Assembly: GCF_000621845.1 (NCBI RefSeq)
Contig: NZ_KK211356.1
Location: 2,713 to 66,712, forward strand
DNA length: 64,000 nucleotides
Direction: 5' to 3'
Origin: Ruminococcus flavefaciens MA2007
GTDB lineage: Bacteria > Bacillota > Clostridia > Oscillospirales > Ruminococcaceae
Of this stretch, positions 29,798 to 53,157 are shown piece after piece. The position numbers and the translations under genes are program-made. Position 1 is the first letter of the stretch. Every line of letters starts with the position of its first letter. The notes under the pieces are model-generated. The model had not been told where the DNA came from and ran no database searches. It saw only the letters and a program-made list of their open reading frames with translations.

Positions 29798-29798
29798 A

Positions 29799-30150
29799 GC
29801 CACGGCTTAACTGTGATATCCATATAGAAATTTTATGTTTATTATTGAGATAACCCCTTTTGAAAAAGGGGTTATCTCAAACTCTCTCCCTAAAACTTTC
29901 AGTTTTATTTTTTCTCATATAGGGCTCGCTCTGTATTATTACAGGGCTTTTTTTATTTTAGGCGAGCCCTATATGAGAAAAAATCAGCTAAAAAAGTCTT
30001 TGGAAAGGGGTATGGGGGTGACTCCCCGCAGTGCGGGGAGATGTCCGCAGGACAGAGGGGCGCGCCTCCGTCAGAGGAACCTTTCTTCAGAAAGGTTTCC
30101 CCCATAAATAACTATAAGCTTCTATATAAGTATCACGGTTATACCGTGGC
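29799..30150. repeat. Palindromic ~350-bp element, copy A
   Basis: Inverted ends GCCACGG...GTGATA and TATCACGGTTATACCGTGGC, internal inverted repeat TTTTTTCTCATATAGGGC/GCCCTATATGAGAAAAAA, and a central unrelated hairpin (CTCTGTATTATTACAGGG). Arms carry nested hairpins CCCCTTTTGAAAAAGGGG, CTCCCCGCAGTGCGGGGAG and AACCTTTCTTCAGAAAGGTT. Copies B (32236) and C (52811) share these blocks. It lies between convergent genes, two bases after one stop codon. No transposase is encoded. Confidence 0.85.
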
Positions 30151-30161
30151 TTTTGCTTGTG

Positions 30162-30536
30162 TTATTGGTCCGCAGGGATTATGGGAAGGTCTATGGAGCC
30201 GTCGGGATTGACCTTTACGCTGTCGTTTGCAGCGGTTGTGTTTTCTTCGGCAGACGCTGCTGTTTCCGCAGTATATGCCTCTGTTATCTCTTCTTTTGCT
30301 GCCTGTGTTGTCTCTGCTTCCGTTTTTTCGGGCTGCTTTTCATCGCTTTTGCTTGTTGTCTCAGTTTCGGACGTAACAGCTTCTGTTGTATTTGCAGTTC
30401 TTTCTGTTGCCGCAGCTGCGGCAGTAGTCACTGACGTATCAGTAGAGCTGTTGCTGCTGTCGGTATCGCTGTTTTCTACATTGCAGCCTGTCAGCAGCAG
30501 AGAGGCTGCAAGAAAAATATGTATCAGTTTTTTCAT
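30162..30536 (-). CDS. Small Thr/Ser/Glu/Ala-rich lipoprotein
   Basis: Start 30536 (MKKLIHIFL) with GAGGAGAATC upstream; 124 residues. Lipoprotein signal with lipobox LLTGC (Cys ~18). The mature part is almost entirely low complexity (Thr, Ser, Glu, Ala) and ends with a short conserved-looking tail PDGSIDLPIIPADQ. No function is recognised; it may be a truncated or stalk-like surface lipoprotein. Confidence 0.65.
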   Translation of the reverse strand: MKKLIHIFLAASLLLTGCNVENSDTDSSNSSTDTSVTTAAAAATERTANTTEAVTSETETTSKSDEKQPEKTEAETTQAAKEEITEAYTAETAASAEENTTAANDSVKVNPDGSIDLPIIPADQ

Positions 30537-30553
30537 GATTCTCCTCTTATCGC

Positions 30554-30590
30554 AACAGGCAGCCATATTAATGAGCTGCCTGTTTTTATA
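30554..30590. terminator. Hairpin between two minus-strand genes
   Basis: AACAGGCAGC/GCTGCCTGTT stem. The T run is on the plus-strand side (GTTTTTAT), so on the minus strand it is a stem without a proper T run; it may act as partial terminator or processing site after the gene ending at 30601. Confidence 0.4.
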
Positions 30591-30600
30591 GTATTCTTAT

Positions 30601-31926
30601 TTATTCGGCATAATCAGATGCGGCGATGAAATACTCGTAAAGGGCATTAGCCATTACGATATCCTTTTTAGCAGCGTCCTTCTTGCCCATAACACGGAAA
30701 GCCCATGACATAGGGCTGAATAAGTAATCAGTACCCTGATAGTTCAAATTGAATGTAGTACCGAGCTGTGTAGGTGTTATGCCCGGAACTTCAAAACAGA
30801 CCTTTCCGTTTGCGCCTTTAAATGCATAGGTTTCAGCAAATGGTGAAATTACAAGCTTATTGTTCTCATCGAATGTCCACATATCATATGCAGCAACATC
30901 GTGGCCTGACTCCTCATACTTGGCTGTGTACAGACGAACAGCCAGCTTTGAGTTAAGAACAAGTGACATTAAAGCTTCGCTTGAATCGAACATTGGCTGA
31001 TACTTATTGAAAGAATACTCGCCGAATACTGTTTTTGCGTCGAGGATATCCTTTGAGTGGTCCTTTACCTCGGGCAGAGTTCCGTTGCTGAAATATGCTT
31101 CGGAGACCTTTCCGTACTGCTTTGTTGCGTTTACAAGGGCTTTGAGCTTGGTATTGTCTGAAGTGCCAACAGCGTCAAGATAATCATTTACTGAAAAAGC
31201 AAGAGTATCAACAGGTGTTTTGCTGCCGCCGTAATAAAGCTCGGCAGTTATCTTGCTGTTCATTTTGTTTGCGGCAACATTGGCTGTTACGCAGTAAACT
31301 TCCTTGCCGCCTATTGTTTTGAGCTCAAGTTCGTGAAGAGTATTGCCTGCCTCGTCGCAGTCGCCTGATAACTTCACCTTAAAGCTGTCAGCGTTTTCTT
31401 CGTTTACCTCACCGACGATGAAGTTCAAGCCGATGCCGTCGTTGAGAGTAATATTCTTGCTGCTGAACTTTGGAACTGAAAGTCCGATAATATAAGGCTC
31501 GGTTTCTGTGCCCTTACCGCCTGTTATATAGAAGCCCTTAGGAGTTACAGACTTATCCTTGCGAGTTACATAAAAACCGTTATGTACTTCCGTAAACATG
31601 GTGTCGCCTGTTTTCCAGATATACTGATTATCTGCGTCGGAGTTTTCAAATGCGGTTATTGTAATATCACTGCTTACCTTTGCTGAGGGATAACCCGAAT
31701 TAGGATCATCATCGACTACGAACCATGTCTCGCCTGTAATAGCAATGGTGTCGCCTTCTTTATAAAGTGTGCCTACTGCTGGAGCTTTTTTCTCTGCTGC
31801 TGCATTGGCAGTGATACCGCTGCCTGCATTGAAAAAGCCGCCTGCATTCACAGGCATTGCTCCTGCAATAAGAGCCATTGACATTAAAAATGCAGTTGTT
31901 TTCTTAAAACCAAGGTGTTTTTTCAT
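30601..31926 (-). CDS. Secreted protein with a conserved Ruminococcus-type surface module, unknown function
   Basis: 441 residues, GGAGGACATAGTA before the ATG. Signal peptide (1-~44, ending ITANAAA). Residues ~50-150 form a beta-rich domain (TLYKEGDTIAITGETWFV). Residues ~160-300 hold a module (LNDGIGLNFIVGEV...SVNDYLDAV...YGKVSEAYF) that I have seen as a recurrent module at the ends of Ruminococcus secreted proteins; it has no assigned function. No dockerin or sorting signal, so retention at the cell is unclear. A palindromic element (copy B) lies ~310 bases upstream. Confidence 0.72.
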   Translation of the reverse strand: MKKHLGFKKTTAFLMSMALIAGAMPVNAGGFFNAGSGITANAAAEKKAPAVGTLYKEGDTIAITGETWFVVDDDPNSGYPSAKVSSDITITAFENSDADNQYIWKTGDTMFTEVHNGFYVTRKDKSVTPKGFYITGGKGTETEPYIIGLSVPKFSSKNITLNDGIGLNFIVGEVNEENADSFKVKLSGDCDEAGNTLHELELKTIGGKEVYCVTANVAANKMNSKITAELYYGGSKTPVDTLAFSVNDYLDAVGTSDNTKLKALVNATKQYGKVSEAYFSNGTLPEVKDHSKDILDAKTVFGEYSFNKYQPMFDSSEALMSLVLNSKLAVRLYTAKYEESGHDVAAYDMWTFDENNKLVISPFAETYAFKGANGKVCFEVPGITPTQLGTTFNLNYQGTDYLFSPMSWAFRVMGKKDAAKKDIVMANALYEYFIAASDYAE

Positions 31927-32235
31927 TACTATGTCCTCCTTATTCTATTACAAATGGCATATTAAGAAGCTGAACTTACTTCTGATAAACACGGCAAAAA
32001 ACATCAATAGTACAAATAATACGGAATTTTTGAATCGAAAAACAGGACAAGAAGACATTATAAAATCATGATGTGTTCTTTACAGAAGCTTTTAGCTTTT
32101 TGGGAAATAAATATACATTTTGTCGATTTCAAGTGCTTATATACTTAAAGTCGTTAGTATTATATCATAGCTGTTTTTGAATGTCAATACTATATTTGCC
32201 ATTTTGTGATTTTTCTTGCCAAATATAAATAAAAA
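31927..32235. other. AT-rich upstream region of the 31926 gene
   Basis: Over 300 bases with no gene. It must contain the promoter of the minus-strand gene, but no -35/-10 pair with good spacing stands out. Short open frames here have no ribosome binding sites. Confidence 0.5.
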
Positions 32236-32589
32236 AGCTCCGACATAACCGTAGTACGTATAAAGAAGTTTTATGCTTATTATTGAGAGAACCCCTTTTG
32301 AAAAAGGGGCTCCTCTGACGGAGGACGTCCCCTCTGTCACTGCGTGACATCTCCCCGCACTGCGGGGAGTCACTCTCAAACTCTCTCCCTAAAACTTTCG
32401 TTTTGTTTTTTCTCAGATAGAGCGCTTTATAAAATAAAAAAGTCCTGCAAAATGCAGGAGCGCCCTATCTGAGAAAAAACCAGATAAAAGTCTTTGGAAA
32501 GGGGTATGGGGGAGAACCTTTCTTCAAAAAGGGTTCCCCCATAATTAACTATAAGCTTCTATATGAGTATTACGGTTATGGTCGGAGCC
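32236..32589. repeat. Palindromic ~350-bp element, copy B
   Basis: Ends AGCTCCGACATAACCG and its inverted partner CGGTTATGGTCGGAGCCT. Internal inverted repeat TTTTTTCTCAGATAG/CTATCTGAGAAAAAA shows a paired base change relative to copy A (CTCATATAG/CTATATGAG). Central hairpin TCCTGCAAAATGCAGGA is unrelated to copy A. The CCCCGCACTGCGGGG sub-hairpin sits on the left arm here but on the right arm in copy A. It begins 15 bases after the histidine kinase stop codon on the minus strand. Confidence 0.85.
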
Positions 32590-32604
32590 TTTGATGCTAT
32601 TCTG

Positions 32605-33816
32605 TTACATCGTCAAAGAAACATAAAAAATATTGTATCCGTTCTCGCTTTCAGCCCATATTTTTCCGTTATGCTCCTTGATTATGCTGTCGGCTATAGA
32701 AAGTCCGAGACCGTAGCTCTGTCCGTCGTTTCTTGCCTGATCTACGCGGTAGAACCGCTTGAAGATATTCTCGCGTTCCTCCTTTGTAAGGGGAGTGCCG
32801 AGACCTGCTACTGACAGGATACATTCCGAGCTGTGACGCTTCAGCTTCACGGTGACTTTATCGGCTGGATCGGAGTATTTCAGCGCATTATCCAGCAGGA
32901 TATTCACCACCTGTCTCAGCTTGTCCCTGTCGCCGCTGACCTTGATATCATTGTCGATATCCGATGAGAGCTCCATGTCATTCTCATAAAACAGCGGTTC
33001 AAAGGGGAGTATGCTGTCGTTTATCAGCTTGCTGAGGTCAACTGTTTCGCACTTTATCTGCGTTCTGTTATTGTCAAGCCTTGCAAGCTCCAGAAGGCTC
33101 TCGACCAGTCCTCTCATACGCTGTGATGTTGAGAGGATATTCTTTGTAAATCCGTCTCTGGCACTTTCCAAGTAGCTCTTATCACTCATCATTTCCGCAT
33201 TTGTCATGATAACAGTCAGCGGAGTTTTCAGCTCGTGGGAAGCGTCCGCAATGAACTGCTTCTGCTCGTTCCATGTCTTTTCAACAGGCTTTGTCACCCA
33301 TTTTGCAAGGAGCAGGCTTATCAGAAAGAACACCGCATACCCTATAAGACCTATTATGACCATATTCCTGATAAGTCCCTTTATCATGGCTTTTTCGCTG
33401 GATATATCCGCAAAAACTATAGATCTCATGCGTCCGCGGTAGTTTTTCATGTACCTCAGACCGTAGTCCGGCAGTATTCCCGTTTCTTTTTTGCTGGCAT
33501 TTACAGTATCCACAAGCTTTTCCAGCATCTCTGTATCTGTAAGGTCGAAATAATCTCCGCCTGAAGCAGTTATCTCGCCGTCATGGGAGATATTTACCGT
33601 AAAAAAGGGGAGACGTATATTATCGGGAGTTTTGTCGGGCTTATGCATTGAAGCGTCGGCAGGCGGACGAAATGCCATAGTTCTCATCATCTGTTCGCTC
33701 TCGCGCTCCATATTCTGCATTGTAAAGTGCAGTACAAGTCCGAAAATCACGATAAACAGGACAGTGACAATGCTCATTATCACTGCAATGAATTTTATCC
33801 TCAGCCGTTTCAGCAT
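32605..33816 (-). CDS. Membrane sensor histidine kinase
   Basis: 403 residues. Two membrane helices (~10-32 and ~152-175) flank an extracellular sensor of ~120 residues. The HisKA box ADASHELKTPLTV carries the phospho-acceptor His (~residue 199); the ATPase domain has the N box (NILLDNALKYSD) and G boxes (YGLGLSIADSI). It phosphorylates the response regulator encoded just upstream in the same operon; the reading frames overlap by one base (TAATG). The VTC/DUF4956/CotH operon is divergent and may be its target. The signal is unknown. Confidence 0.95.
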   Translation of the reverse strand: MLKRLRIKFIAVIMSIVTVLFIVIFGLVLHFTMQNMERESEQMMRTMAFRPPADASMHKPDKTPDNIRLPFFTVNISHDGEITASGGDYFDLTDTEMLEKLVDTVNASKKETGILPDYGLRYMKNYRGRMRSIVFADISSEKAMIKGLIRNMVIIGLIGYAVFFLISLLLAKWVTKPVEKTWNEQKQFIADASHELKTPLTVIMTNAEMMSDKSYLESARDGFTKNILSTSQRMRGLVESLLELARLDNNRTQIKCETVDLSKLINDSILPFEPLFYENDMELSSDIDNDIKVSGDRDKLRQVVNILLDNALKYSDPADKVTVKLKRHSSECILSVAGLGTPLTKEERENIFKRFYRVDQARNDGQSYGLGLSIADSIIKEHNGKIWAESENGYNIFYVSLTM

Positions 33817-34487
33817 TATCCATCACACTCCAGATGATAGCCCAGACGACGCATGGCTTCGATACGGACATTTGAGCCGATACTTACAAGCTTCTTACGC
33901 AGGAAGCTCACATATGCCTCAACGTGGTTCTCCACAGCATCTGAATCGTATCCCCATACCTTTGTGAGCAAGGTCTCCTTTGAGATGTGTTTTTCTCCCG
34001 AGACCATAAGCATTCGCATGACTTCAAACTCTCTTGCGGAAAGTCTCACGTTATTCTCGCCGCATATCAGCGAAGCCGACTCCATATCAAGGCGTGTGTT
34101 GCCGAAGGTAAGCTCGTTGACCTGCGAGCCCTGTCTGCGGAGAAGCGCATTTATGCAGGCGAGGAGCTCCCTTGCGTCAAAGGGCTTAGTGAGGTAATAG
34201 TCCGCACCTGCGTCAAGCCCCTGCACCTTGTCTTCAATATCGGATTTTGCCGTCAGCATTAAAATAGGTGTGGAATTGCGCTTGGCGCGGACAGCCTTTG
34301 CCACCTGATAGCCGTTCTTTTTCGGAAGCATTATATCGAGTATTATCAGGTCGTAGATATTCAGCATAGCGTACTGCTCGCCGCTTTCGCCGTCATAAAC
34401 AGCCTCTGCTTCAAAGCCCTTTGACTCCAGCATAAGCTTCAGCGAATCAGCAAGCACCTTTTCGTCTTCTATAATGAGTATCTTCAT
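33816..34487 (-). CDS. OmpR/PhoB-family response regulator
   Basis: Start 34487 (MKILIIEDEKV) with AGGGGA upstream; 223 residues. Receiver domain (~1-115) with phospho-acceptor Asp in IILDIMLPKKNG and Lys in TKPFDARE; C-terminal winged-helix DNA-binding domain (~128-223, LSAREFEVMRMLM, ENHVEAYVSFLRKKL). First gene of a two-gene operon with the histidine kinase; the divergent region to the VTC gene contains direct repeats that could be its binding sites. Confidence 0.95.
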   Translation of the reverse strand: MKILIIEDEKVLADSLKLMLESKGFEAEAVYDGESGEQYAMLNIYDLIILDIMLPKKNGYQVAKAVRAKRNSTPILMLTAKSDIEDKVQGLDAGADYYLTKPFDARELLACINALLRRQGSQVNELTFGNTRLDMESASLICGENNVRLSAREFEVMRMLMVSGEKHISKETLLTKVWGYDSDAVENHVEAYVSFLRKKLVSIGSNVRIEAMRRLGYHLECDG

Positions 34488-34630
34488 ATGTGATTCCCCT
34501 TTCTTCACATAATATATACGCACGTAACGCCGAGGCGGCGTTTCCTACATTAATTATAATACAACACAGAGCTGAATACAAGCTGAAAATAAAAGCTTTT
34601 GCTGTAATTTCACTTAACTTTCACTTTGGT

Positions 34631-34683
34631 TTTACAGCATTCACACTGTTTTTCAGTGTCAATTCAGCGTTTACAGGTATAAT
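34631..34683 (+). promoter_or_regulatory. Direct repeats and -10 in front of the VTC/DUF4956/CotH operon
   Basis: Five related blocks, TTTACAG, TTCACAC, TTTCAG, TTCAG and TTTACAG, start at 34631, 34640, 34651, 34663 and 34670, roughly one helical turn apart, directly upstream of TATAAT at 34678-34683. OmpR/PhoB regulators bind such direct repeats in place of a -35 box, and no good -35 is present here. Confidence 0.45.
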
Positions 34684-34770
34684 TTAAGCATAGGATACGG
34701 CGCACGCAGACATAACTTGCCCATTCAATGGCTGTGTGCGCACCTATACCAATGAAAAGAGGTGAAAACT

Positions 34771-35439
34771 ATGGATCTCAGACATGAGATAAAGCATGAG
34801 ATAAACTACTCCGACATGATAACGATACGCCACAGACTCAGCGCAGTAGCATATCACGATCCACACGCCATAGACGGAAAATACTTTATCCGCAGTCTTT
34901 ACTTCGATAACCTTGCAGACAATGCGCTTATGGAAAAGATAAACGGCATGAACCGCCGTGAAAAGTTCCGTATCAGATACTACAACGGCGATACCTCGGT
35001 CATTCATCTTGAAAAGAAAAGCAAGATAGACCACCTCGGCAACAAGCAGAGCGCACCGCTGACAGCACAGCAGGCTCAGAGCATAGTTGACGGGGATACG
35101 AAATGGATGATAGATTCACAGTACCCACTTATACGTGAGCTGTACACCAAAATGGCAACAGAGGGGATAGCTCCCAAAACTATAGTAGACTATACAAGAG
35201 AGCCATTCATCTATCCCGCGGGAAATGTCCGCGTCACCCTTGATTATAATATCAGGAGCGGTCTGCGGTGTACAGATTTTCTCAGCCCCGACTGCGTGAC
35301 AGTACCCGTTTCGGATTCTATCGTTCTTGAAGTCAAGTGGGACGGTTTTCTTCCCGATATAATCAGAGACGCAGTTTCCCTCTCAGACAGGCGTGAGGGA
35401 GCTTTCTCAAAATATGCAGCCTGTAGGATATACGGATAA
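34771..35439 (+). CDS. VTC-domain protein (polyphosphate-polymerase-like)
   Basis: Start 34771 (MDLRHEIKHE) after AGAGGTGAAAACT; 222 residues, the usual length of bacterial stand-alone VTC domains. Tunnel-forming and phosphate-binding residues of the family are seen in KYFIRSLYFDN, REKFRIRYYNG, IHLEKKSK and VLEVKWDGFLPD. In yeast the VTC domain makes polyphosphate from nucleotide triphosphate. It is followed by DUF4956 and CotH genes with short gaps, a recurring trio in Firmicutes. Polyphosphate synthesis as such is not proven for bacterial members in this context. Confidence 0.88.
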   Translation: MDLRHEIKHEINYSDMITIRHRLSAVAYHDPHAIDGKYFIRSLYFDNLADNALMEKINGMNRREKFRIRYYNGDTSVIHLEKKSKIDHLGNKQSAPLTAQQAQSIVDGDTKWMIDSQYPLIRELYTKMATEGIAPKTIVDYTREPFIYPAGNVRVTLDYNIRSGLRCTDFLSPDCVTVPVSDSIVLEVKWDGFLPDIIRDAVSLSDRREGAFSKYAACRIYG

Positions 35440-35454
35440 AAAGGAGTTTTTATT

Positions 35455-36126
35455 ATGAGTTTCAGTGATATTTTCAAGTCTAATTTTATAGAGAATGTGA
35501 CCAGCGTCAGCGTTCTTGATATGGCAGTAGCCCTGCTTCTTGCATTCGGTCTGGGAATGTTCATATTCCTCGTTTACAAAAAGACCTATTCGGGAGTTAT
35601 GTACTCCGCAAGCTTCGGCACAACACTCGTTGCACTTACAATGATAACCACAGTAGTTATCCTCGCAGTTACCAGCAATGTGGTACTTTCGCTCGGTATG
35701 GTGGGCGCACTTTCTATCGTCCGTTTCCGTACAGCAATAAAGGAACCTCTTGATATCGCATTCCTGTTCTGGTCTATCGCAGTCGGTATCGTTCTTGCGG
35801 CAGGCATGATACCTCTTGCAGTTATCGGCAGCGTTATCATCGGCGTTATCCTGCTGGTATTCGTAAACCGCAAGGCAAGCAAGAACCCTTACATCGTAGT
35901 TGTACGCTGTGACGGTCACGACAGCGAGACAAAGGCTAAGGCTTTCCTTGACGGCAAGACCGAAAGATGCGTAGTAAAGAGCAAGACAGCTCAGAAGGGC
36001 TCTGTTGAGCTTAATATGGAGATACGCCTCAAGGACGACAACACTGATTTCGTCAATACCCTTGCAGATATGGAGGGCGTCAGCAGTGCTGTCCTCGTAA
36101 GCTACAACGGCGACTACATGGGATAA
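35455..36126 (+). CDS. DUF4956 integral membrane protein
   Basis: 223 residues, AAAAGGAG before the ATG. About four membrane helices (~20-45, ~50-75, ~95-125 in part, ~110-140), with the family signature GMVGALSIVRFRTAIKEPLD between helices, followed by a cytosolic C-terminal domain (~150-223). It sits between VTC and CotH genes 15 and 12 bases away. A membrane partner of the VTC protein, possibly for export of product, is inferred from conserved neighbourhood. Confidence 0.88.
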   Translation: MSFSDIFKSNFIENVTSVSVLDMAVALLLAFGLGMFIFLVYKKTYSGVMYSASFGTTLVALTMITTVVILAVTSNVVLSLGMVGALSIVRFRTAIKEPLDIAFLFWSIAVGIVLAAGMIPLAVIGSVIIGVILLVFVNRKASKNPYIVVVRCDGHDSETKAKAFLDGKTERCVVKSKTAQKGSVELNMEIRLKDDNTDFVNTLADMEGVSSAVLVSYNGDYMG

Positions 36127-36138
36127 GGGTGTGATTTG

Positions 36139-38484
36139 ATGTCAGTACATAAAAACATAGACAGGATATGCATTGCGATAACAGCTTTTGCCCTTGTCAT
36201 AGCCTTTATCTTCTGCAATAGTCAGGCGCTGGGCATAAAAACGACGGCTCATGCCATAGGCTATGAGAACCGCCTGTTTGACCGCTCAAAGGTGCATACC
36301 ATTGACATAGTCATGAACGACTGGGAGGGCTTCATAGAGGGCTGCGAGAGCGAGGAATACTCCGCCTGCAATCTTGTTATCGACGGCGAAGCTGTGAAAA
36401 ACGTCGGTATCAGAGCAAAGGGCAATACTTCCCTCAGCTCCGTAAAGAATATGGACAGCAGCCGCTACAGCTTCAAGATAGAGTTCGACCAGTACGAAAA
36501 CGGCAAGACCTATCACGGCCTTGACAAGCTGTGCCTGAACAATATCATTCAGGACAACACCTACATGAAGGACTACCTTGCGTATACGCTGATGTATGAT
36601 TTCGGCGTGGACGCCCCCCTTTGCAGCTATGCCTATATCACGGTGAACGGCGAGGACTGGGGACTGTATCTTGCTGTTGAAGCTATCGAGGAGTCATTCC
36701 TTGAAAGAAACTACGGCAGCAATTACGGCGACCTCTACAAGCCAGACGCTATGAGCTTCGGCGGCGGACGCGGCAACGGCAAGGACTTTAGTATGGGGAA
36801 TTTTATGGATAAAGAGAGCGGAGAAGATACAGAAAGCTCCGACAATTCAAATGATAACAACAAGCAGTTCACTCCTCCCGATTTCGGAGGCGGAATGCCT
36901 GACTTCGGCGGTGAAATGCCTGATTTCGGTGACTTTGATCCCGAAAATATGCCTGAGGACTTCGATCCCTCAAAGATGTTCGGCGAGAACGGCGAAAAGC
37001 CCGACTTCGGCGGCGGTCAGATGCCTGACATGAACGGAAAAGGCGGATTCGGCGGCGGCTTCGGTATGGGAAGCGACGATGTAAAGCTTAAATATACCGA
37101 TGACGATATAGACAGCTATTCCAACATCTTCAATAACGCAAAAACTACAGTTGATAAAGCCGATAAAAAGCGCCTTATCAGCTCACTGAAAGCTCTTTCG
37201 GAGCAGTCAGACCTTGAAAATACCGTCGATGTTGAGGAAGTTATCCGCTACTTTGTAGTTCATGATTTCCTTGTAAACGGCGACAGCTACACAGGTCAGA
37301 TGATTCACAACTACTACCTCTATGAGGAAGACGGTCAGCTCTCTATGATACCGTGGGACTATAACCTTGCATACGGTTCATTCATGGGCGGAAACGCTTC
37401 ATCTTCCGTTAATTCGCCAATCGATACTCCTGTGACAAACGGCATGAGCGACAGACCTATGATCGCTTGGATATTCGATAATGAGGAATACACAGAGCAG
37501 TATCATCAGCTTTTCAGCGAGTTCCTTGACAGCGTGGACTTTGAAAAGCTTGTGGCAGATACCGCAGAGCTTATCGACAAATACGTCGAAAAAGATCCTA
37601 CAAAATTCTGCACCTGCGACGAGTTCAAAACAGGCGTTGAAGCTATCAGCAAGTTCTGCACTCTCCGCGCAGAAAGCGTCAGCGGACAGCTCGACGGCAC
37701 TATCCCGTCTACCACAGAGGGACAGAAAGAGGACAGCTCTGTACTCGTTGACACAGACGGTCTGAACACCTCTGATATGGGCTCCATGGGCGGCGGAAAA
37801 GGCGGATTCGGCGGAGGTCAGAAGGGCGGTTTCGACAGGAATAACAGCTCAAAAAAGGCAGCTACATCTGATACTTCAAAGAAAACTGAAGACTCCGAGA
37901 TAGTGCAGACTTCAAATACTTCATCTATCTCTTTAAAGATGCTGAGCAATATCCAGCCGCTTGCAAACGAGGATAATTCCAGCCGCAGCGGCAAACCACA
38001 GCGCGGCAGCGGCGAGAAGCCCAACTTTAGCGGCGGACAGCCTCCTCAGGGCTTCGGCGGAGAAATGCCCGACGACTTTGATCCTGGCAATATGCCTGAT
38101 TTCGGCGGTCAGCCCCCTCAGGGCTTTGACGGCGAAATGCCCGGTGACTTTGATCCGAATAATATGCCTGACGGCGCTCCGTCTTTCGGAGATAACGCCA
38201 AAACAGATGATGAGGACGCAGACAGCTCCGAGACGGAAAAGGTCACAGAGGCTGAAAAAGGCACTGAAAACGTGGAAAAGCCTGCGCCGAATGGTGATGA
38301 AAACAGCAGTTCCGCTCCTCAGAATGAAAATAAGTCAAGAGGCGGCGAAAGACCGCAGATGGGAGACTTCCCCGATATGAACGGAGCACCTCAGCAGAAC
38401 AACACCACAGCATATATACTGCTTGGCGTGTCAGCTCTGGCACTTCTGCTCGGTCTTGGATTTGCCCTGAAATTCAAGAGATGA
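36139..38484 (+). CDS. Membrane-anchored CotH kinase family protein
   Basis: Start at ATG 36139; 781 residues. N-terminal membrane helix (~10-32), CotH kinase fold (~50-470) with GIRAKGNTSL, YSFKIEFDQY, LDKLCLNNIIQDNTYMKDY, and WDYNLAYGSF. A Pro/Asp/Phe/Gly/Met-rich insert (~245-320) interrupts the fold, similar repeats recur near 615-690, and a C-terminal membrane helix (TTAYILLGVSALALLLGLG) ends with KFKR. CotH enzymes use ATP to phosphorylate secreted proteins; the acidic repeats may be self-substrates or spacers. Third gene of the VTC-DUF4956-CotH operon. Confidence 0.9.
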   Translation: MSVHKNIDRICIAITAFALVIAFIFCNSQALGIKTTAHAIGYENRLFDRSKVHTIDIVMNDWEGFIEGCESEEYSACNLVIDGEAVKNVGIRAKGNTSLSSVKNMDSSRYSFKIEFDQYENGKTYHGLDKLCLNNIIQDNTYMKDYLAYTLMYDFGVDAPLCSYAYITVNGEDWGLYLAVEAIEESFLERNYGSNYGDLYKPDAMSFGGGRGNGKDFSMGNFMDKESGEDTESSDNSNDNNKQFTPPDFGGGMPDFGGEMPDFGDFDPENMPEDFDPSKMFGENGEKPDFGGGQMPDMNGKGGFGGGFGMGSDDVKLKYTDDDIDSYSNIFNNAKTTVDKADKKRLISSLKALSEQSDLENTVDVEEVIRYFVVHDFLVNGDSYTGQMIHNYYLYEEDGQLSMIPWDYNLAYGSFMGGNASSSVNSPIDTPVTNGMSDRPMIAWIFDNEEYTEQYHQLFSEFLDSVDFEKLVADTAELIDKYVEKDPTKFCTCDEFKTGVEAISKFCTLRAESVSGQLDGTIPSTTEGQKEDSSVLVDTDGLNTSDMGSMGGGKGGFGGGQKGGFDRNNSSKKAATSDTSKKTEDSEIVQTSNTSSISLKMLSNIQPLANEDNSSRSGKPQRGSGEKPNFSGGQPPQGFGGEMPDDFDPGNMPDFGGQPPQGFDGEMPGDFDPNNMPDGAPSFGDNAKTDDEDADSSETEKVTEAEKGTENVEKPAPNGDENSSSAPQNENKSRGGERPQMGDFPDMNGAPQQNNTTAYILLGVSALALLLGLGFALKFKR

Positions 38485-38510
38485 GCCTTACAGAAAACAG
38501 AATAATACGC

Positions 38511-38544
38511 AAAAAAGCTCCGACCATTCGGTCGGAGCTTTTAT
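38511..38544. terminator. Bidirectional terminator with the same stem as the palindromic elements
   Basis: AAAAAAGCTCCGACC, loop ATTC, GGTCGGAGCTTTT. The stem AGCTCCGACC is also the outermost stem of elements B and C, where ~330 bases lie in place of the 4-base loop. Serves the CotH gene and the convergent GH43 gene. Confidence 0.85.
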
Positions 38545-38552
38545 AATAAAAG

Positions 38553-41953: not shown

Positions 41954-41971
41954 TGCTCCCCGAAGGGAGCT
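41954..41971 (-). terminator. Terminator of the pilus operon
   Basis: GCTCCC-CGAA-GGGAGC hairpin just after the stop of the last pilus gene (41973); the minus-strand side continues ATTTCTTGTTT. Confidence 0.65.
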
Positions 41972-41972
41972 T

Positions 41973-43608: not shown

Positions 43609-43638
43609 CTTATCACCCTGCTAACTGTTTGGTATTTA

Positions 43639-44472: not shown

Positions 44473-44538
44473 CGGATCCTCCCTGCTGCAATATCTGCGG
44501 CGGCAGAATGACCGCCGCGATACTGCTGATTTAGGAAA

Positions 44539-46272: not shown

Positions 46273-46322
46273 AATATCACCTTTCATAATAGAATTTTGT
46301 TTGATATGCATTTGAGGAGGTA

Positions 46323-48893
46323 TCATTTATCCTCCTTTCTTTTCCGCAGCAGAAGAGCCGCGAAAGAGAGTATGATAACGGCTGAGCCTGTTATCATATA
46401 TGGAACTACGCCGACACCGCCTGTTGACGGCAGTCTGTAGATCGGAAGCGTTTCCTGAAGCACTTCGTTCAGAGATGCCTTTATTGTAAAGTCAAGACCT
46501 GTGTGTGTCGGGCACTTGTTCAGAGCGTCGATAACGCTTTGATGATCCATTTCAAAATTAACACTGTCAAGGAATATGTTATCTCTGGAAGATATATCAT
46601 CTGATGATGAAGAGATGATATTGCCGCTTGCATTGTATTTAGTTACTGTTTCGGTTTTTGGAACGAGAAGAAGCTGAATATCAAACAGAGCTGTATCCGT
46701 ATTATAGAGCGAGAAGTTTTTGTCATTTCTCAGATAAACGTAATCTCCGTTTTTTATCTTCATAGCATTTGGATTTGCGTTCGGATCTTCACATTTGATA
46801 TAGTTAGAAGTAAGCTCATACTGAGTATCTCCCGGATTTCCGTGGCGGTAATAATCGTCAGTAATGAAAGTTTGTATCGTAGAGCCATTTGAATCAAGTA
46901 TATCACATCTGTTGACATTTGCAACATATGCTTCATATTCAGTAATAGTCTCGATATAGCTTCCGTCGGGGGCAGATACTTTTTTAGTTGCTTTATACGT
47001 TCCGCCTTCTGCTATTTCAATATCTGCATGAGTAAGGTTGACATTTGCGTCTCTGACCTTAATGTATATTGTTTTGTATTCGCCGTCACAGTATATCGCT
47101 ACGCTCTGAACATTATCGCCTGTATTGTCAAATGCTTTCAGAGTTGCATATTTATAGTTCCCATCGGCACTGCTTTCAAGAGTCATCCACTTTGACGTAT
47201 TATTATCCGTCGGGAAATAGAACCATGCATCCTGATTTACTCGAGATATCGGTATCTTTAATCTTATAGTATCTCCTGTTTCGATCACTATCGGATTATT
47301 TTGATTATTATGCTTTCCATATATACTTAAAAAATCATAGTCAATAAGCTTTTCTTCAAGCACTCTGACATAAAATTCCTTTACATCGTTTTGAGAGAAT
47401 TGGTATTTTATGACCACATCGCCTGCTTTGTTGGCTGTATATTTTCTGACCTTTTTGTAGTAGGTATTTCCGTCACTGCCTGTAACAGAAATACTCTGTG
47501 ATTCGTCATAATCACCGGGTATCAGAATATTTTTATATTCGTTTTCACGATTTGTATCATAATAAAACCATTTGTCAGGGAGCATTGAATAGCCTGCGAT
47601 GGTTATCGTATCTCCCTTTTGGATAATATACGGGAAATATGGAGAATTATGAACGTATCCGTTGTCATTCGGCAGCCAGGTAAGCTCCTCCAGCGATTCA
47701 TGGAGCTTGTCTTTTTCGACTTCACCGAGAGCGGTTACTACATATATGGAAAAGCTTTCTGCTTCAAAAACAGCACTGCTTTCAGACACTTCGGCATTTT
47801 TGACTATTTCAGCACCGCCGCTGTCATCAAAATGGAGCAGGTTGAATTCCTTGCCGCTGAGCTTTTGTTCTTCGGGAAGAGCTATCTCAACGTGTACCGC
47901 AGAGCTGTCGGCAGGTTCGAGTTCAATACCGTTAGGAGACATGAATGAGATATCAACGGCAACAGCCTCGATATCATTTGCTCCCAGAGCTTCAGACGCC
48001 TTTTCAAGGGCTTCGTCACGGGGGACGTCTGCGGCGCGCATTTCTGTACCGTCGGGGAATACCCCATGTTCAGCCGAAGCAGTCACCTTTATTCCCGATT
48101 CGCTTTCCGCCGAGAACTTCATATGGGAAATATTACTGCTTTCAGGCGTTTCAACAGGCACATAGCCCATGATATGCTCATCGTCAGGGGAGTATCTGCA
48201 TTCCGAAACAGCTCCGTCTGTCTGTCCCTCTATGGTGGTTATACAGGGCTCGTCGGTATCGGAAATGAACTCGGAAATAATTCCCGAGCGGTCCGCCTTA
48301 CCGTCAAGGTCTGTATCAAGCAGAAGTACATCGCCTCGTTTGGGCGAGCCCTTATTCAAAGGGGAGAGTACTCCTTTTTCACTGAGTTTCAGTGACCATG
48401 CCCAGCAGCCTGAGCCGAACGGGATCTCCGTTTCCTTTACGCCTGCGTAGTGCAGGCAGAAGCAGGTGAACATGGTGTTCCAGTCGCCGTAGGGATTTCC
48501 GAACCATGCGCCGTAGCGGCTGTAATTCTTGTGAGTTGAGCCGTCGTCGCCGATAATATAATTCTGAGCGTTTTCGGTATAGTCCAACTGTGAAGCTGCT
48601 ATAAGAGCGGCATTTTCTGCCATATCGTCCGTAAGCTCAGGAAGTGTCGATTCCCATATCTCACTTGTTTCGCAAAGAGAGCCGTCGGAAGCCGACAGCG
48701 CAGCTGCTAAGCTGCTCTCATTCGGGCTGAGCGTATCATCTGTCAATGCTGTGCCTATACCGCGCAGCTGCCAGAAAACGCCTATGGAAACAAATACAGA
48801 CATGGCGGTTATAAATGAAGCCAGCCGCCGTTTTTGTTTCTTTTCCATGCGAAGCTCGTGAAGATATTTTTTCAAGGAGTTATTCAAATGCAT
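46323..48893 (-). CDS. Pilus tip/adhesin with a CHAP-like domain lacking its catalytic residues, LPSTG-anchored
   Basis: 856 residues. Membrane/signal helix (~23-45); a CHAP-like segment (~115-240). At the usual catalytic Cys position (YGDWCAMF in active relatives, from memory) this protein reads YGDWNTMFTCFCLHYAGV, and the usual HVGIV His position reads DRSGIISEF, so it is probably not an active peptidase. Residues ~255-385 include a repeat with EALEKASEALG and a beta-rich domain; ~400-790 are further beta domains. The C-terminus has LPSTGG, a membrane helix and RKRKEDK. Encoded upstream of the major pilin, the usual place of a tip adhesin. Start at 48893 has AGGGGGG close by; 48848 is an alternative. 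Confidence 0.82.
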   Translation of the reverse strand: MHLNNSLKKYLHELRMEKKQKRRLASFITAMSVFVSIGVFWQLRGIGTALTDDTLSPNESSLAAALSASDGSLCETSEIWESTLPELTDDMAENAALIAASQLDYTENAQNYIIGDDGSTHKNYSRYGAWFGNPYGDWNTMFTCFCLHYAGVKETEIPFGSGCWAWSLKLSEKGVLSPLNKGSPKRGDVLLLDTDLDGKADRSGIISEFISDTDEPCITTIEGQTDGAVSECRYSPDDEHIMGYVPVETPESSNISHMKFSAESESGIKVTASAEHGVFPDGTEMRAADVPRDEALEKASEALGANDIEAVAVDISFMSPNGIELEPADSSAVHVEIALPEEQKLSGKEFNLLHFDDSGGAEIVKNAEVSESSAVFEAESFSIYVVTALGEVEKDKLHESLEELTWLPNDNGYVHNSPYFPYIIQKGDTITIAGYSMLPDKWFYYDTNRENEYKNILIPGDYDESQSISVTGSDGNTYYKKVRKYTANKAGDVVIKYQFSQNDVKEFYVRVLEEKLIDYDFLSIYGKHNNQNNPIVIETGDTIRLKIPISRVNQDAWFYFPTDNNTSKWMTLESSADGNYKYATLKAFDNTGDNVQSVAIYCDGEYKTIYIKVRDANVNLTHADIEIAEGGTYKATKKVSAPDGSYIETITEYEAYVANVNRCDILDSNGSTIQTFITDDYYRHGNPGDTQYELTSNYIKCEDPNANPNAMKIKNGDYVYLRNDKNFSLYNTDTALFDIQLLLVPKTETVTKYNASGNIISSSSDDISSRDNIFLDSVNFEMDHQSVIDALNKCPTHTGLDFTIKASLNEVLQETLPIYRLPSTGGVGVVPYMITGSAVIILSFAALLLRKRKEDK

Positions 48894-48924
48894 CCCCCCT
48901 TTCCTATTTAATATAATTTAATGC

Positions 48925-49560
48925 TTAATCAGCCGACCATATCCTTAAAAGATATCTGCCGACCATCTGGTCGTAATCTACACAGCCGACAGCAGTGCTT
49001 CGGCTGTCAACGGAGGTCTCACGCTGATCTCCCATGACAAAAAGCTTCCCTTCGGGAACGGTATAGGGAAGATCTATATCACATTCGCCGAGAGCCTTAT
49101 TGGTAACATAAGGCTCGTCAAGAAGCTCTCCGTTAAGATACACATTTCCTTTTTCGTCAATATCGATATTGTCACCGGGAAGCCCTATTACACGTTTGAG
49201 CAGAAGCTTGTTCTGCCACGAAACACAGCATAGCTCGCCTGTACAAAAGCGCTTTGTTTTTACAAGGAGTATAATATCTCCATTGTTCAGTGTGGGCATC
49301 ATGCTGTCTCCCGAAACCTGTATAACAGGCAGGAAAAGCATGGATATCAGTACTGCTATAGCAGCTGCCACAAGGAGCGCGGAAACAGTGCTTTTTAATA
49401 TTCGTCGGAATTTTGCCTTGTTATCAAGCTTTGTCCGTTCTGCTGCGACCTGTTCGACAGGCGGCAGCTCCGAATTATTTTCATCTTCGGTATTCATCAT
49501 AGTATAAACGAGGTCAACAAGCTCCCGTTTATTCAGGTCTCCAAATTCCTTTTTTGACAT
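48925..49560 (-). CDS. Pilus-operon signal peptidase I (SipA/LepB-like)
   Basis: 211 residues. Cytoplasmic N-terminal ~55 residues with an extended acidic segment, one membrane helix (~57-80), then the S26 core: nucleophile Ser in QVSGDSMMPTL, general-base Lys in LLLKRVIGLPGD, and MGDQRETSVDSRS (the usual GDN box reads GDQ). Family members process secreted preproteins; in pilus clusters SipA-like homologues sometimes act as chaperones of pilin assembly. First gene of the six-gene pilus operon, with a clear promoter upstream. Confidence 0.92.
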   Translation of the reverse strand: MSKKEFGDLNKRELVDLVYTMMNTEDENNSELPPVEQVAAERTKLDNKAKFRRILKSTVSALLVAAAIAVLISMLFLPVIQVSGDSMMPTLNNGDIILLVKTKRFCTGELCCVSWQNKLLLKRVIGLPGDNIDIDEKGNVYLNGELLDEPYVTNKALGECDIDLPYTVPEGKLFVMGDQRETSVDSRSTAVGCVDYDQMVGRYLLRIWSAD

Positions 49561-49604
49561 TTCTTTATCCCGCCTTTGTCAAAAATGAATTACAATATGT
49601 AGTA

Positions 49605-49633
49605 ATTATAGCACACGTTCATATTTTTATCAA
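49605..49633 (-). promoter_or_regulatory. Promoter of the pilus operon
   Basis: Minus strand TTGATA (49628-49633), 17 bases, TATAAT (49605-49610), about 45 bases before the start at 49560. Confidence 0.7.
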
Positions 49634-49912
49634 TAAAATGAGAATAAAAAAACCAACAAAAATTAATGCTTTGATTTGTTGATTTTTTGCAGAGAGACAA
49701 TGAATTCCCTGTAAAATGGAAATTATATTGCAGAAAGACGAAAAAACACGGCTGTAGGTGAAAAATTTGCAGCTTTTGCGGACGAAAATGAAGTTTTTTT
49801 ATTTGGATTAAACATTTTCATCAAATTTTAAGAGTATTTTAAGAATGATTGGTTATGATTTATGCACATATATTTATATTGTTTTTTTATAATTTATAGG
49901 AGGATGATAAAA
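49634..49912. other. AT-rich divergent region between pilus operon and dockerin-CotH gene
   Basis: No gene is seen. The promoter of the plus-strand gene at 49913 should lie here; TATGAT near 49855 is a candidate -10 but lacks a good -35. Confidence 0.45.
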
Positions 49913-52795
49913 ATGAAGAAAAAAACAATGCTTGCAGGCATACTCTCTGCCTGCGTAGTTGGCACGGCATCAGTCCTGTCTCTCACAGGCGCCGCAGCCG
50001 ACAAGGTGTACGGTGACGCCAATCTCGACGGCTCTGTGGATATGTCGGACTGCGTTCTTGTAATGCAGTCGCTGGCTAATCCCTCAAAGTTCGGCACAAC
50101 CGGCACAGACGAAAGGCACCTCACTGCCGACGGTGCAGACCTTGCCGATGTTTCCGACCGCGGCAACGGTATCACCGCCAATGACGCCCTCTCCATACAG
50201 CGCTATCTTCTCGGCACTATAAAAAGTCTGCCCGAGAGCTTTGCTGACGGAAAGGGCAGCGATACCTCTTCAAAGGACGAGGTAAACACAAAGATACACC
50301 TTAAAGATAATGCCATTACTGTTGATGGGCAGTATGCTAAAGCCGACGGCTCAAAGGTGACTATCTCTCATTCGGGAAGCTACACTATCGACGGTACTCT
50401 CTCAGACGGTCAGATATATGTGGAGATACCTGATGCTGAGGCTGATAAGGGCACAGTAAAGCTCATATTCAGCGGCGTCAATATCACAGGCAAGAGCGCT
50501 CCTGCTGTTCTTATTAAGAACGCAGACAAGACATCTATCACTCTTGCTGACGGCACAGAGAATACAGTTTCCGACGGTACTTCACCTTACTCAGGCGACG
50601 ATCTGACCAATGCAGTAATCGAGGCAAAGGACGATCTCACTATCAAGGGCGGCGACAAGGGCACGGGTACACTGACCATAACTGCCAATACACAGCCTGC
50701 TATCGTCTGCAACAACGATATAAAGTTCACAGGCGGTATCACCAACATCGAAACTCTAAACGAGACCGAGCCAAATGACGCTGTAAAGGGCAAGTCCTCA
50801 GTCACAGTAAAGGGCGGCAGGCTTGTCATCAAGTCCGAGGGCGACGGTATCAAGTCCACAAAGGGAAATGTTGACCTCTCAGGCGGCGAGGTAGTCATCA
50901 AGTGCGGCAATGACGCTGTACAGGCTGAAACGGCTATCAATATCAGCGGCGGCGATATCTCCGCATTCGGCGATAAGGGACTCACAAGCGCAGGCACTAT
51001 CAGTATCACAGGCGGCGAGCTCATCGCAACAGCTACCGACTGCCAGTGCGAGAACCTTACCTCAACAGAGCAGAATACTCTCATGTTCGACTTTGTCAAG
51101 GAATGGGGCAAGAACAATCCTGTTGCAATTACAGATTCTTCAAACAAGGAGCTCTTTGACAAGAATACCTCAAAGAAGTTCAGATATGCAATAGTTTCCT
51201 CTTCTAAGATAGAGGGTGCTGAATACAAGCTCTTTGTCGGCGGTATCAAGATGAAGCACAGTGCAGGAAGTACCTTCAAGGCAGGAAAGCCTGCTTCATA
51301 CAAGGAAGTCAATAACGACATGGAGAATGAGGAGCAGCTCTACAGCGAACTTTTCAGTCAGGACATGATACATAAGATAGATGTCAAAATGGACGAAGCC
51401 CAGTGGGATAATCTCCTCAAGAACGCCAGCAAGGAGGAATGGACTCCATGTGATGTTGTTATCGACGGCGAGGAACTCAAAAACGTGGGTATCCGCACCA
51501 AGGGCAACAGCTCCCTTATGATGGCTAAGAACGGCAAGTACAGCTTCCGTATCAAGACAGACAAGTTCGACAAGGAAGTAAACTACCACGGACTTACAGA
51601 GCTTTGCATGAACAATATGCTCATGGACGCTTCATGCCTCAGAGATATCCTCTGCTACAACGCTATGTATGAAGTCGACGGCGTTGCACCTCATGCCGCA
51701 CATACTGATATGTACCTCAACGGCGAGCTCTACAGCTTCTATCTCCTTGCTGAGCAGCCCGGTACTACCGTAGCCGAGCGCTATGCCGTAGATGACGATT
51801 CCGTGCTTTACAAGGCTACTGAAAGCAACGGTGCAGAAGGCGGCTGGGGCGGCTTCGGCGGCGACAGCTACTGCTCATTCACTGAGAATATGCCTCTTGA
51901 CAGATTCGACGTCAAATTCGGCAAGGACGACGAATTCAAGCATATTCAGGACGTAAAGACAGCTATAAACAAGCTTACTCCCACTGATTACAAGTTTATC
52001 GAGGACGTTATCGACGTACCCAGTTTCCTCAAGGGATTTGCAGTCAACTCCATTTTCTGCAACTATGACAGCTACAACGGCTCCCTTGCACATAACTACT
52101 ACCTGATGTTCTCGGGCGGCAAGGCTCATTTCGTAGGCTGGGACTACAATCTCTGTCTCGGAAACTTCACAGGCGGCGCAAACTCTGTTACATCTGATAT
52201 AACTACAAGTCTTTATCAGTCCACAATAGAGGACCGTCCTCTTGCGAAGCTTTTACAGGTGCCTGAGTACTACGATATGTATGTTGATATCGTAAACGAT
52301 ATCCTGAATTACTACAGCGATCCCGAAGCATATGTTTCTGCTTATGCCAAGAAGATACGCTCACACGTTATAGCTGATCCCCGCGCTTCATTCACGATTG
52401 AGGAATTTGATGTGAATACGTCAAAGAGCGCAGAGGGACTCCAGTACAGCGAAGAGGATACAGGTATGAGCTGGGGCAACTGGCAGGGTGCAGGAGACGG
52501 TAATTTCCCTGCATTCGGCAACGGAAACGGTGACGCCAACGGTGCATGGCAGGGATTCGGCGACGGAAACGGTAACTTACCTGCATTCGGTGACGGCGAG
52601 AACGGCGGCTGGCCCGGTTTCGGCGGCGACGCAAGCTTCGACTGGGAAAACATGGATTGGAGCAATATGGACTGGGGCGACATGGACTTCGGTGATATGG
52701 ACTGGGGCAACGGAATGTTCGGCGGCGGTCAGACTTCAGTCGTTGACTTCCTTATCAAGAGATTCGAGATAATCCGTGAGGCTCTCAAAAAATAA
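49913..52795 (+). CDS. Dockerin-Cthe_2159-CotH fusion protein
   Basis: Start 49913 (MKKKTMLAGI) with TAGGAGGATG upstream; 960 residues. Signal peptide (1-~28); dockerin (~32-105, GDANLDGSVDMSDCV); Cthe_2159-type beta-helix (~122-410, KIHLKDNAITVDGQ, GDGIKSTKGNVDLSGG); CotH kinase (~475-830, GIRTKGNSSL, YSFRIKTDKF, TELCMNNMLMDASCLRD, WDYNLCLGNF); Gly/Asp/Trp/Phe-rich C-terminal repeats (~850-935, GFGDGNGNLPAFGDGEN, NMDWSNMDWGDMDFGD). It combines scaffold docking, polysaccharide binding and a secretory kinase in one chain. What it phosphorylates is unknown; the acidic tail or pilin/dockerin partners are possibilities. Confidence 0.9.
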   Translation: MKKKTMLAGILSACVVGTASVLSLTGAAADKVYGDANLDGSVDMSDCVLVMQSLANPSKFGTTGTDERHLTADGADLADVSDRGNGITANDALSIQRYLLGTIKSLPESFADGKGSDTSSKDEVNTKIHLKDNAITVDGQYAKADGSKVTISHSGSYTIDGTLSDGQIYVEIPDAEADKGTVKLIFSGVNITGKSAPAVLIKNADKTSITLADGTENTVSDGTSPYSGDDLTNAVIEAKDDLTIKGGDKGTGTLTITANTQPAIVCNNDIKFTGGITNIETLNETEPNDAVKGKSSVTVKGGRLVIKSEGDGIKSTKGNVDLSGGEVVIKCGNDAVQAETAINISGGDISAFGDKGLTSAGTISITGGELIATATDCQCENLTSTEQNTLMFDFVKEWGKNNPVAITDSSNKELFDKNTSKKFRYAIVSSSKIEGAEYKLFVGGIKMKHSAGSTFKAGKPASYKEVNNDMENEEQLYSELFSQDMIHKIDVKMDEAQWDNLLKNASKEEWTPCDVVIDGEELKNVGIRTKGNSSLMMAKNGKYSFRIKTDKFDKEVNYHGLTELCMNNMLMDASCLRDILCYNAMYEVDGVAPHAAHTDMYLNGELYSFYLLAEQPGTTVAERYAVDDDSVLYKATESNGAEGGWGGFGGDSYCSFTENMPLDRFDVKFGKDDEFKHIQDVKTAINKLTPTDYKFIEDVIDVPSFLKGFAVNSIFCNYDSYNGSLAHNYYLMFSGGKAHFVGWDYNLCLGNFTGGANSVTSDITTSLYQSTIEDRPLAKLLQVPEYYDMYVDIVNDILNYYSDPEAYVSAYAKKIRSHVIADPRASFTIEEFDVNTSKSAEGLQYSEEDTGMSWGNWQGAGDGNFPAFGNGNGDANGAWQGFGDGNGNLPAFGDGENGGWPGFGGDASFDWENMDWSNMDWGDMDFGDMDWGNGMFGGGQTSVVDFLIKRFEIIREALKK

Positions 52796-52810
52796 TGTCA
52801 TACACCAAAA

Positions 52811-53157
52811 AGCTCCGACCATAACCGCAATACTTATATAGAAGCTTATAGTTATTTATCGGGGAAAACCTTTCTGAGGAAAGTTTCCCTCTGACGGAGG
52901 CGCGCCCCTCTGTCCTTCGGACATCTCCCCGCACTGCGGGGAGTCACCCCGAACCCCTTTCCAAAGACTTTTAGCTGATTTTTTATAACAGAGCCCCTCT
53001 GTAAGAACTACAGAGGGGCGAGTTTTTATATGGGCTCTATTATAGAAAAAATGAAATAACGGTCTTGATAGAGATACGAGAAAAGCCCTTTTCAAAAGGG
53101 CTCTCTCAATAATAAGCATAAAATTTCTGTATAAGTATCGTGGACATGGTCTGAGCT
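52811..53157. repeat. Palindromic ~350-bp element, copy C
   Basis: Ends AGCTCCGACCATAACCG and ATGGTCTGAGCT; inverted relative to A and B. Shares TATATAGAAGCTTATAGTTAT, CTCCCCGCACTGCGGGGAG, CCCCTTTCCAAAGACTTTT and AATAATAAGCATAAAATTTCT blocks. The internal inverted repeat is TTTTTTATAACAGAGCCC/GGGCTCTATTATAGAAAAAA, and the central hairpin CCCTCTGTAAGAACTACAGAGGG is again unique. It lies between convergent genes, 16 bases after one stop codon. Confidence 0.85.

Follow-up and report, generated by a model that had tools for sequence, protein, structure and literature searches.

The stretch of DNA analysed here (the window) comprises 64,000 nucleotides of Ruminococcus flavefaciens MA2007 (contig NZ_KK211356.1 of assembly GCF_000621845.1, positions 2,713-66,712 of the forward strand) and contains three copies, A, B and C, of a palindromic repeat of 321-330 bp. 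This repeat very probably represents a family of miniature inverted-repeat transposable elements (MITEs) which inserts at a TA dinucleotide in the apical loop of intrinsic terminators. The element is short and contains no transposase gene, and its dispersed multiple copies, terminal inverted repeats, target site (TA) duplication and presence or absence between close relatives are those of a MITE, bearing out the suggestion of a non-autonomous, MITE-like element in a first-pass annotation made from the window sequence. That annotation had placed the three copies at 29799-30150, 32236-32589 and 52811-53157, where they are indeed present and far more foldable than shuffled sequence (z = -16.1, -15.5 and -10.1 for A, B and C, respectively). 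Its key remark, that the copies are built inside terminator-type stems, was correct as to their position; the stems, however, are the target in the host and not parts of the element, as they vary between sites and occur without the element in related genomes.

TA in the apical loop of host terminators

The landing site was characterized with 45 full-length copies from the window's own genome (G000; 3.39 Mb, 28 contigs, 98% complete). The outer flanks vary between copies, and the left and right flanks of one copy are complementary to each other. After the two flanks were joined, the true pairs folded with a mean of -18.8 kcal/mol versus -6.5 kcal/mol for 1980 swapped pairs, and the true pair was among the best three of 89 combinations in 37 of the 45 copies. 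TA abuts both ends in 33 copies (the left end in 34 and the right end in 38), and these 33 were taken into a loop test. Removal of the element together with one TA left a hairpin with the remaining TA in its apical loop at 33/33 sites, while such a hairpin was obtained at 0/33 sites at each of eight positions to which the insertion point was moved by 6 to 12 bases. A T run of at least four is found in the right flank of 37/45 copies and an A run in the left flank of 37/45, both being present in 31/45. Folding predictions for all 45 copies, on either strand, have the two host arms joined by at least six pairs across the element.

Rough open reading frame (ORF) calls put 24 of the 45 copies in the gap between two convergent genes and 17 in a gap that follows one gene and precedes another; 3 copies adjoin a contig end and 1 has divergent calls on its two sides, and the 3' end of a gene adjoins at least one side in 44. 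The last number is compatible with insertion at TA anywhere, followed by selection that spares only the cases in terminator loops, where they disturb neither transcription nor genes: gene 3' ends are where insertions are best tolerated, and the same argument has been made for pneumococcal repeats in the accessible text of PMC3049150. Tolerance, however, predicts insertions beside terminators and at plain intergenic TA as well, whereas the loop was hit at all 33 scorable sites, and this explanation is considered unlikely.

The first-pass annotation had proposed empty sites and target duplications as a check. When occupied sites were compared with their counterparts in relatives, unoccupied terminators and a gained TA were both found. 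Locus L009 of G000 and its counterpart in the close relative YL228 (L240) have almost identical flanks, between which YL228 reads TTTAAA and G000 TTTA-element-TAAA. TA was thus duplicated on insertion. A TTAA (piggyBac-like) duplication fits L009 as well, but fails for the copies with ATAA or TTAT neighbours, and TA duplication was therefore preferred. Like arms without the element are present in YL228 at L007, L016, L070 and the site of copy A, the last reading AAAAGCCACAGCTAAGCTGTGGCTTTTTT. At L034, where the check covered absence alone, the element is missing from YL228, and this site, like L002, L028 and L075, shows absence but not the target. Among 20 YL228 regions, picked for seeming empty, for an unusual length or for tracking copies A and C (so that the counts are not rates), 9 are without the element, 10 with it and 1 with half of it. 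In the YL228 site search, 40 of 223 candidates were scored, and the absence of a site among them is uninformative.

The same situation was seen next to the histidine kinase gene beside copy B, which is followed in relative G079 by a plain terminator (AAAGGCTCCGGTCTAACGACCGGAGCCTTT) and in G000 by like arms around the element; this gene is unoccupied in G019 and occupied in G074, with both flanks alike. By eye, the element occupies 1/11 relatives at B (all 12 loci of the gene compared) and 0/9 relatives at C (10 of 16 loci compared, the other six being 38-42% identical). For 14 flanking genes and 8 relatives, 0/69 usable orthologous 3' gene ends matched A, B or C in a search that would overlook strongly diverged elements. 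The set held 70 places, one per gene and genome with weaker matches omitted, of which one with 11 bases after the stop codon was dropped. A simple terminator is seen at many of these orthologous ends, and its arms are like those of G000 at L006 (in G007) and L023 (in G082).

At the sites with like unoccupied arms, the host terminator predates the element. This contradicts there the idea that the flanking inverted repeats were created by the insertion process itself, which could account for stems that abut the element without a spacer and for some unoccupied sites with a different hairpin; the same or like arms at unoccupied L009, L007, L016, L070, A, B and other sites leave it barely credible.

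A terminator of the AAAAAAGGCGAACC/GGTTCGCCTTTTTT type is located in the flanks of L038 and L019, beside GTAGGGGCGCACAGTGTGCGCCC at L038, and recurs in YL228 (G124:C4:101602, 139692 and 160082). It is a separate repeat family which contains a terminator itself.

Element family, its distribution and its remodelling

The first-pass annotation had described a three-copy family. The query with copy A gave at least 94 matching pieces in G000 and that with copy C at least 94, with some additional places. Copy numbers are lower bounds, because 40 of 109 (query A) and 40 of 111 candidates (query C) were scored. From 50 fetched loci, at least 45 distinct full-length copies were obtained, together with one copy split over two contigs. 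Left out of the 45 were L029 (the same place as L078), L008, L020 and L072 (contig-end duplicates of L004, L019 and L035, respectively) and L013, a half copy with its other half at L131 (by eye). Lone end matches led to shorter forms, namely a 130-bp form, a half copy and a 110-bp minimal form with two ends and a single hairpin, and to one contig end. Eight contig ends of G000 (C1, C5, C7, C18, C19, C21, C23 and C27) lie inside copies or at most about 60 bases from them; through the flanks, C18/C19, C5/C27, C1/C23 and C7/C21 can be paired.

The element ends read ACC...GGT, at times degenerate, in imperfect inverted repeats of about 28 bp, and the distance between the ends is 264-334 bp in the 45 copies. 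A tolerant end pattern was found at 68 places in G000, and the reversed control pattern at none. The interior is made up of a centre, an inner stem that contains A/T tracts, and two arm hairpins, one per side. By a simple pattern, the centre is a short hairpin with a T run behind it in 31/45 copies, the inverted form in 4/45 and neither in 10/45, copy C included. A GC-rich cassette about 60 bp long is missing from 25/45 copies, present in the right arm in 11/45 and inverted in the left arm in 9/45. Inverted ends, nested hairpins and a GC-rich sub-hairpin in different arms, all reported by the first-pass annotation, were found again in A, B and C. Its description of the three central hairpins as unrelated fails for B, whose centre is the common one inverted (by eye). 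The centres of A and C represent two subfamilies other than that of B, and the centre of A recurs in other copies at 96-97%. The cassette core (ACTCCCCGCAGTGCGGGGAGATGTC type) was also found on its own, the other parts of the element being absent, in three fecal phage scaffolds (92-94% identity; 4-5 kb, unannotated; MT838377, MT838420 and MT839611; L266-L268, locus positions about 401-448), and the cassette therefore belongs to a wider repeat family.

Copies in related genomes had been proposed as another check, and a match to query A was found in 26/60 sampled genomes: 25/36 of the same genus (own genome included) and, weakly, 1/24 of the order. The exact end pattern was found at 16 loci of the GTDB species genomes (84,980 genomes by the description of the tool, with records very near the own genome possibly omitted), namely in R. 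flavefaciens YL228 (8), Y1 (7) and FD-1 (1), and all 16 contain the element or pieces thereof. Among 35 loci from other species and relatives, 26 were delimited by the ends, of which L042, L067, L068, L101, L260 and L262 have joined flanks folding at -12 kcal/mol or better and TA on both sides. Neither the end pattern nor the cassette pattern was found in viral contigs, and no match to the element was found in plasmids.

The identity to the nearest copy has a median of 95% in G000. The pairs L009/L011 and L019/L022 are identical in all aligned columns save short indels and are located at unrelated sites; the movement is therefore recent. The interior has changed at sites shared with YL228 as well, the following being examples chosen for their unequal lengths and not a rate. 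G000 has the cassette and YL228 lacks it at L005, L040, L073, L076, L077 and L078; only YL228 has it at L024 and L025, and both genomes have it at L017. Of the remaining element, about 200 bases are 98-99% identical at L025, L040, L076 and L078, and 84% at L005. At L023, a 109-118-bp form in YL228 corresponds to a 269-bp form in G000, in opposite orientation by eye.

L027 was considered as an autonomous copy, as its flanks are 6.3 kb apart in YL228, and was rejected because the site holds half an element (L246, 286-1569 and 6346-6464; 100% identical over 63 bp). By eye, genes for an IS256-like transposase and of glycosyltransferase type lie between these flanks, and the YL228 site is a rearrangement at the element. 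The right neighbour of L027 is a reverse-transcriptase-like gene (by eye; 397 amino acids) which ends 15 bases from the element.

A large structured 3' RNA, the other suggestion of the first-pass annotation, was considered in the form of a vertically inherited element of stability or regulation that is not mobile. In its favour are the very stable fold and covariation. Covariation was calculated with an alignment of the 25 copies without the cassette and a consensus structure of 81 pairs. The score was 0.113, compared with 0.079 for column shuffles (reached by 0/500) and 0.021-0.046 for slid controls, so that covariation beyond chance, which the first-pass annotation had wished to see checked, was found. 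Pairs changed on both sides numbered 10 versus 5.4 in shuffles (4/500 reach it), whereas the further pair types showed no excess (37 versus 36.2; reached by 208/500). The compensatory change in the inner stem of A and B, which had been taken to suggest selection for base pairing, is real and recurrent, 7/20 pairs being altered on both sides and 0/20 on one side; but this pattern is equally given by a DNA palindrome that is corrected as a unit through recombination or template switching. Covariation by itself is no evidence for an RNA function here, being indistinguishable from the maintenance of a DNA palindrome. The absence of the element from all 69 orthologous ends and from 9 of the 20 selected YL228 sites, the near-identical copies at unrelated sites, the TA duplication, the inner-stem changes that are never one-sided and pair types not above shuffles all argue against an inherited RNA, and the whole window gave 0 matches in Rfam 15 at the gathering threshold. 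As the sole explanation, a structured 3' RNA is already contradicted, and as an account of the element it is very unlikely.

Candidate transposases and the mode of insertion

A TA target is the habit of IS630/Tc1-mariner transposases and of an IS5 subgroup, and the TA duplication points to such a TA-using DDE transposase. The corresponding models were searched, together with that of IS1182. PF13358 (IS630) was positive in 14/100 genus genomes and NF033551 (IS1182) in 11/60 sampled genus genomes, 6 of them above the curated cut-off. None of the genus IS1182 loci has the element ends at up to 5 mismatches, and the IS1182 ends seen in the genus are different, for example GGAGCTGTTGACAAAC and GGTGCTGTTGACAAAC. 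Among 10 IS1182 loci and 11 of 22 IS630 loci examined for inverted repeats, several had none that stood out. End pairs spaced beyond the element length were found neither in G000 (by eye), nor at six lone ends of G035/G074, nor at the 16 GTDB loci. An autonomous partner could be concealed by one diverged end, by an assembly gap or by its membership of another family, and the enzyme itself may lie outside the assembled sequence, may have been lost or may come from another family.

Enzymes of single-stranded DNA were also considered. Elements moved by them are not known to have long terminal inverted repeats or to make a target duplication. A hairpin loop exposed in single-stranded DNA would be a natural target for such an enzyme (HUH, IS200/IS605 or RAYT-like), and the element is strongly self-complementary; its inverted repeats of about 28 bp and the TA duplication do not agree with this origin, which is regarded as quite unlikely.

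The nearest known parallel in target choice is IS1272/TnSha1 (IS1182 family, staphylococci), which like the present element targets terminator hairpins and, in the accessible text of PMC4923244, hits them without a primary sequence consensus. According to the same text, its insertion is blunt and part of the hairpin is lost. IS1272/TnSha1 is autonomous, enters the stem and makes no duplication. The present element, in contrast, is non-autonomous, has other ends and inserts at TA in the loop with duplication. The retention of both arms and the TA duplication place it outside that group, although it uses a similar niche. Despite the IS1182-type matches in the genus, membership of the IS1182/IS1272 group with blunt insertion into terminator stems and target loss is highly improbable, as both arms are kept, TA is duplicated, the genus IS1182 ends differ and no IS1182 match was found in G000.

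Insertion into terminator loops could tentatively be explained by a transposase that reads DNA shape. Acting in trans, such an enzyme would take the loop TA of a terminator palindrome that is bent or extruded as a cruciform and would duplicate it; the terminator would serve as a safe harbour. A bias of mariner/Tc1 integration to bendable, palindromic AT-rich sites is given in the accessible part of the Mos1 paper (PMC5481204). The strongly palindromic element would then fold so that the split host arms can still meet, and the centre would supply a spare terminator of its own. With the arms folded back and a central terminator, termination would be largely kept and insertion nearly neutral. Afterwards, the interior may be reshuffled by inversion, template switching or short-tract conversion, by which cassettes would be exchanged among copies. 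The choice of the loop by shape is an inference, because no matching enzyme was found in G000 or among the genus loci.

Several points weigh against insertion at the loop TA by a transposase. The flank pairing is outside the best three in 8/45 copies, including copy B (5/88 swaps as good), and 12/45 copies, including copy C, are without TA on one or both sides. L009 is the sole pair with enough similarity for the duplication to be read base by base. At L002, L028 and L075, YL228 has another hairpin without the arms now flanking the element, and at many orthologous gene ends the terminators of relatives have different arms. Outside G000, 9/35 loci could not be delimited, and the joined flanks fold at -12 kcal/mol or better in 9 of the 26 delimited ones, and one of these nine, L046, is probably misdelimited. 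That termination would be preserved is read from folding alone. Finally, G000 gave no match to PF13358 at E 1e-6 and none to NF033551 at E 1e-10, 0/22 IS630 loci of the genus have the element ends at up to 5 mismatches, and PF13340 (the N-terminal domain of IS5 type) was found in 0/12 genomes, G000 among them.

Copies of the window, related systems and significance

The positions of the three copies and their parts are listed in Table 1. The outermost stem at copy A, GCCACGG/CCGTGGC, is host sequence rather than element. With this outer stem counted, one end of each copy is within about 16 bases of a stop codon, as had been noted from the sequence, and no transposase ORF was found in or beside the three copies in the ORF lists, in agreement with the same annotation. 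Copy A lies between convergent genes by the ORF list (the rough ORF caller had miscalled this copy). The host terminator of copy B belongs to the minus-strand histidine kinase gene at 32605-33816. The left end of copy C is degenerate (TCC) and has no adjoining TA.

Table 1. Positions in the window of copies A, B and C, their parts and the host terminators split by them
Feature	Position	Strand	Details
Copy A, element proper	29810..30139	+	ACT...GGT, 330 bp; cassette in right arm; TA at 29808-29809 and 30140-30141
Host terminator split by copy A, 5' arm and TA	29796..29809	+	stem AAAGCCACGG; unoccupied counterpart AAAAGCCACAGCTAAGCTGTGGCTTTTTT in YL228
Host terminator split by copy A, TA, 3' arm and T-tract	30140..30154	+	CCGTGGC TTTT
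Copy A centre, terminator-like hairpin followed by T-tract	29928..29947	+	terminator scan of window
Copy A GC-rich cassette (block), right arm	30019..30077	+	such cassette absent in 25/45 copies
Copy B, element proper	32248..32576	+	329 bp; cassette inverted, in left arm
Host terminator split by copy B, outer arm (A-tract, GCTCCGAC) and TA	32231..32247	+	unoccupied AAAGGCTCCGGTCTAACGACCGGAGCCTTT in G079
Host terminator split by copy B, TA and gene-side arm	32577..32590	+	flank sequence, comparison with G079
Copy B centre, terminator-like hairpin	32443..32459	-	inverted relative to the common orientation
Copy B GC-rich cassette, left arm	32311..32373	-	inverted version of the copy A cassette; borders approximate
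Copy C, element proper	52824..53144	-	321 bp; cassette in right arm
Host terminator split by copy C, TA and GGTCGGAGC arm	52811..52823	+	flank sequence
Host terminator split by copy C, other arm	53145..53160	+	AAAAGCTCAGACCAT on minus strand
Copy C centre, terminator-like hairpin (third centre subfamily)	52993..53019	+	terminator scan
Copy C GC-rich cassette, right arm	52888..52946	-	sequence comparison

The centres of A, B and C were scored as terminator-like by the window scan, and such scores are also frequent in shuffled sequence (7 found versus 2.9 expected, and 2 versus 0.8). A strict scan of the window gave 10 further terminator-like hairpins, none of them occupied and 3 having TA in the loop, versus 3 occupied. 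A sizeable share of the suitable terminator loops in the window may thus be taken by the element, although the numbers are tiny. Mechanical ORFs of 90 amino acids (29835-30107, plus strand, inside A) and 107 amino acids (52856-53179, minus strand, across C) are probably spurious, though open to annotation as hypothetical proteins. Copies A and C each follow a long gene for a repetitive secreted protein (26534-29797 and 49862-52795, respectively), the N-terminal parts of which are similar by eye.

Other known systems share single features with the element. IS1397 and ISKpn1 insert in the loops of REP/BIME palindromes with the arms kept, but hit one repeat family, whereas the present element hits unrelated terminators. 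Group IIC introns use intrinsic terminators as landing marks; they are, however, retroelements which encode a maturase and insert beside the stem and not in the loop. RUP and other MITEs linked to IS630 use a TA target. Like the present element, RUP of pneumococcus is a short MITE with inverted ends, and in the accessible text of PMC3049150 its ends are said to resemble those of IS630-Spn1 and its mobilisation in trans is hypothesised. For the present element no IS630 partner was found, and neither confinement to loops nor internal cassettes are described for RUP in that text. SPRITE, also of pneumococcus, is a terminator-like repeat near gene 3' ends (PMC3049150, same text); it is a terminator-like hairpin itself, whereas the present element sits within the terminator of the host. 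A Porphyromonas MITE is often near terminators according to the part of PMC4596501 that was available, and prokaryotic MITEs in general, as treated in the available part of PMC10969869, are related in kind. In the literature, covered through the titles and opening abstract lines of the best-ranked papers (at most 20 of up to 319 at a time) and with few subscription papers, no report of MITEs in terminator loops or of this Ruminococcus repeat was found.

In this family, a bacterial mobile element lands at a site set by a functional structure: it enters the loop of an intrinsic terminator, duplicates TA and leaves both arms in place. Questions that could be addressed cleanly with it are the recognition of cruciforms or hairpins by a transposase, the avoidance of harm by elements that hide in the 3' ends of genes, and the effect of large loop insertions on termination. 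Several contig breaks in R. flavefaciens genomes, and apparent 'structured 3' RNAs' in them, are likewise explained by the element.

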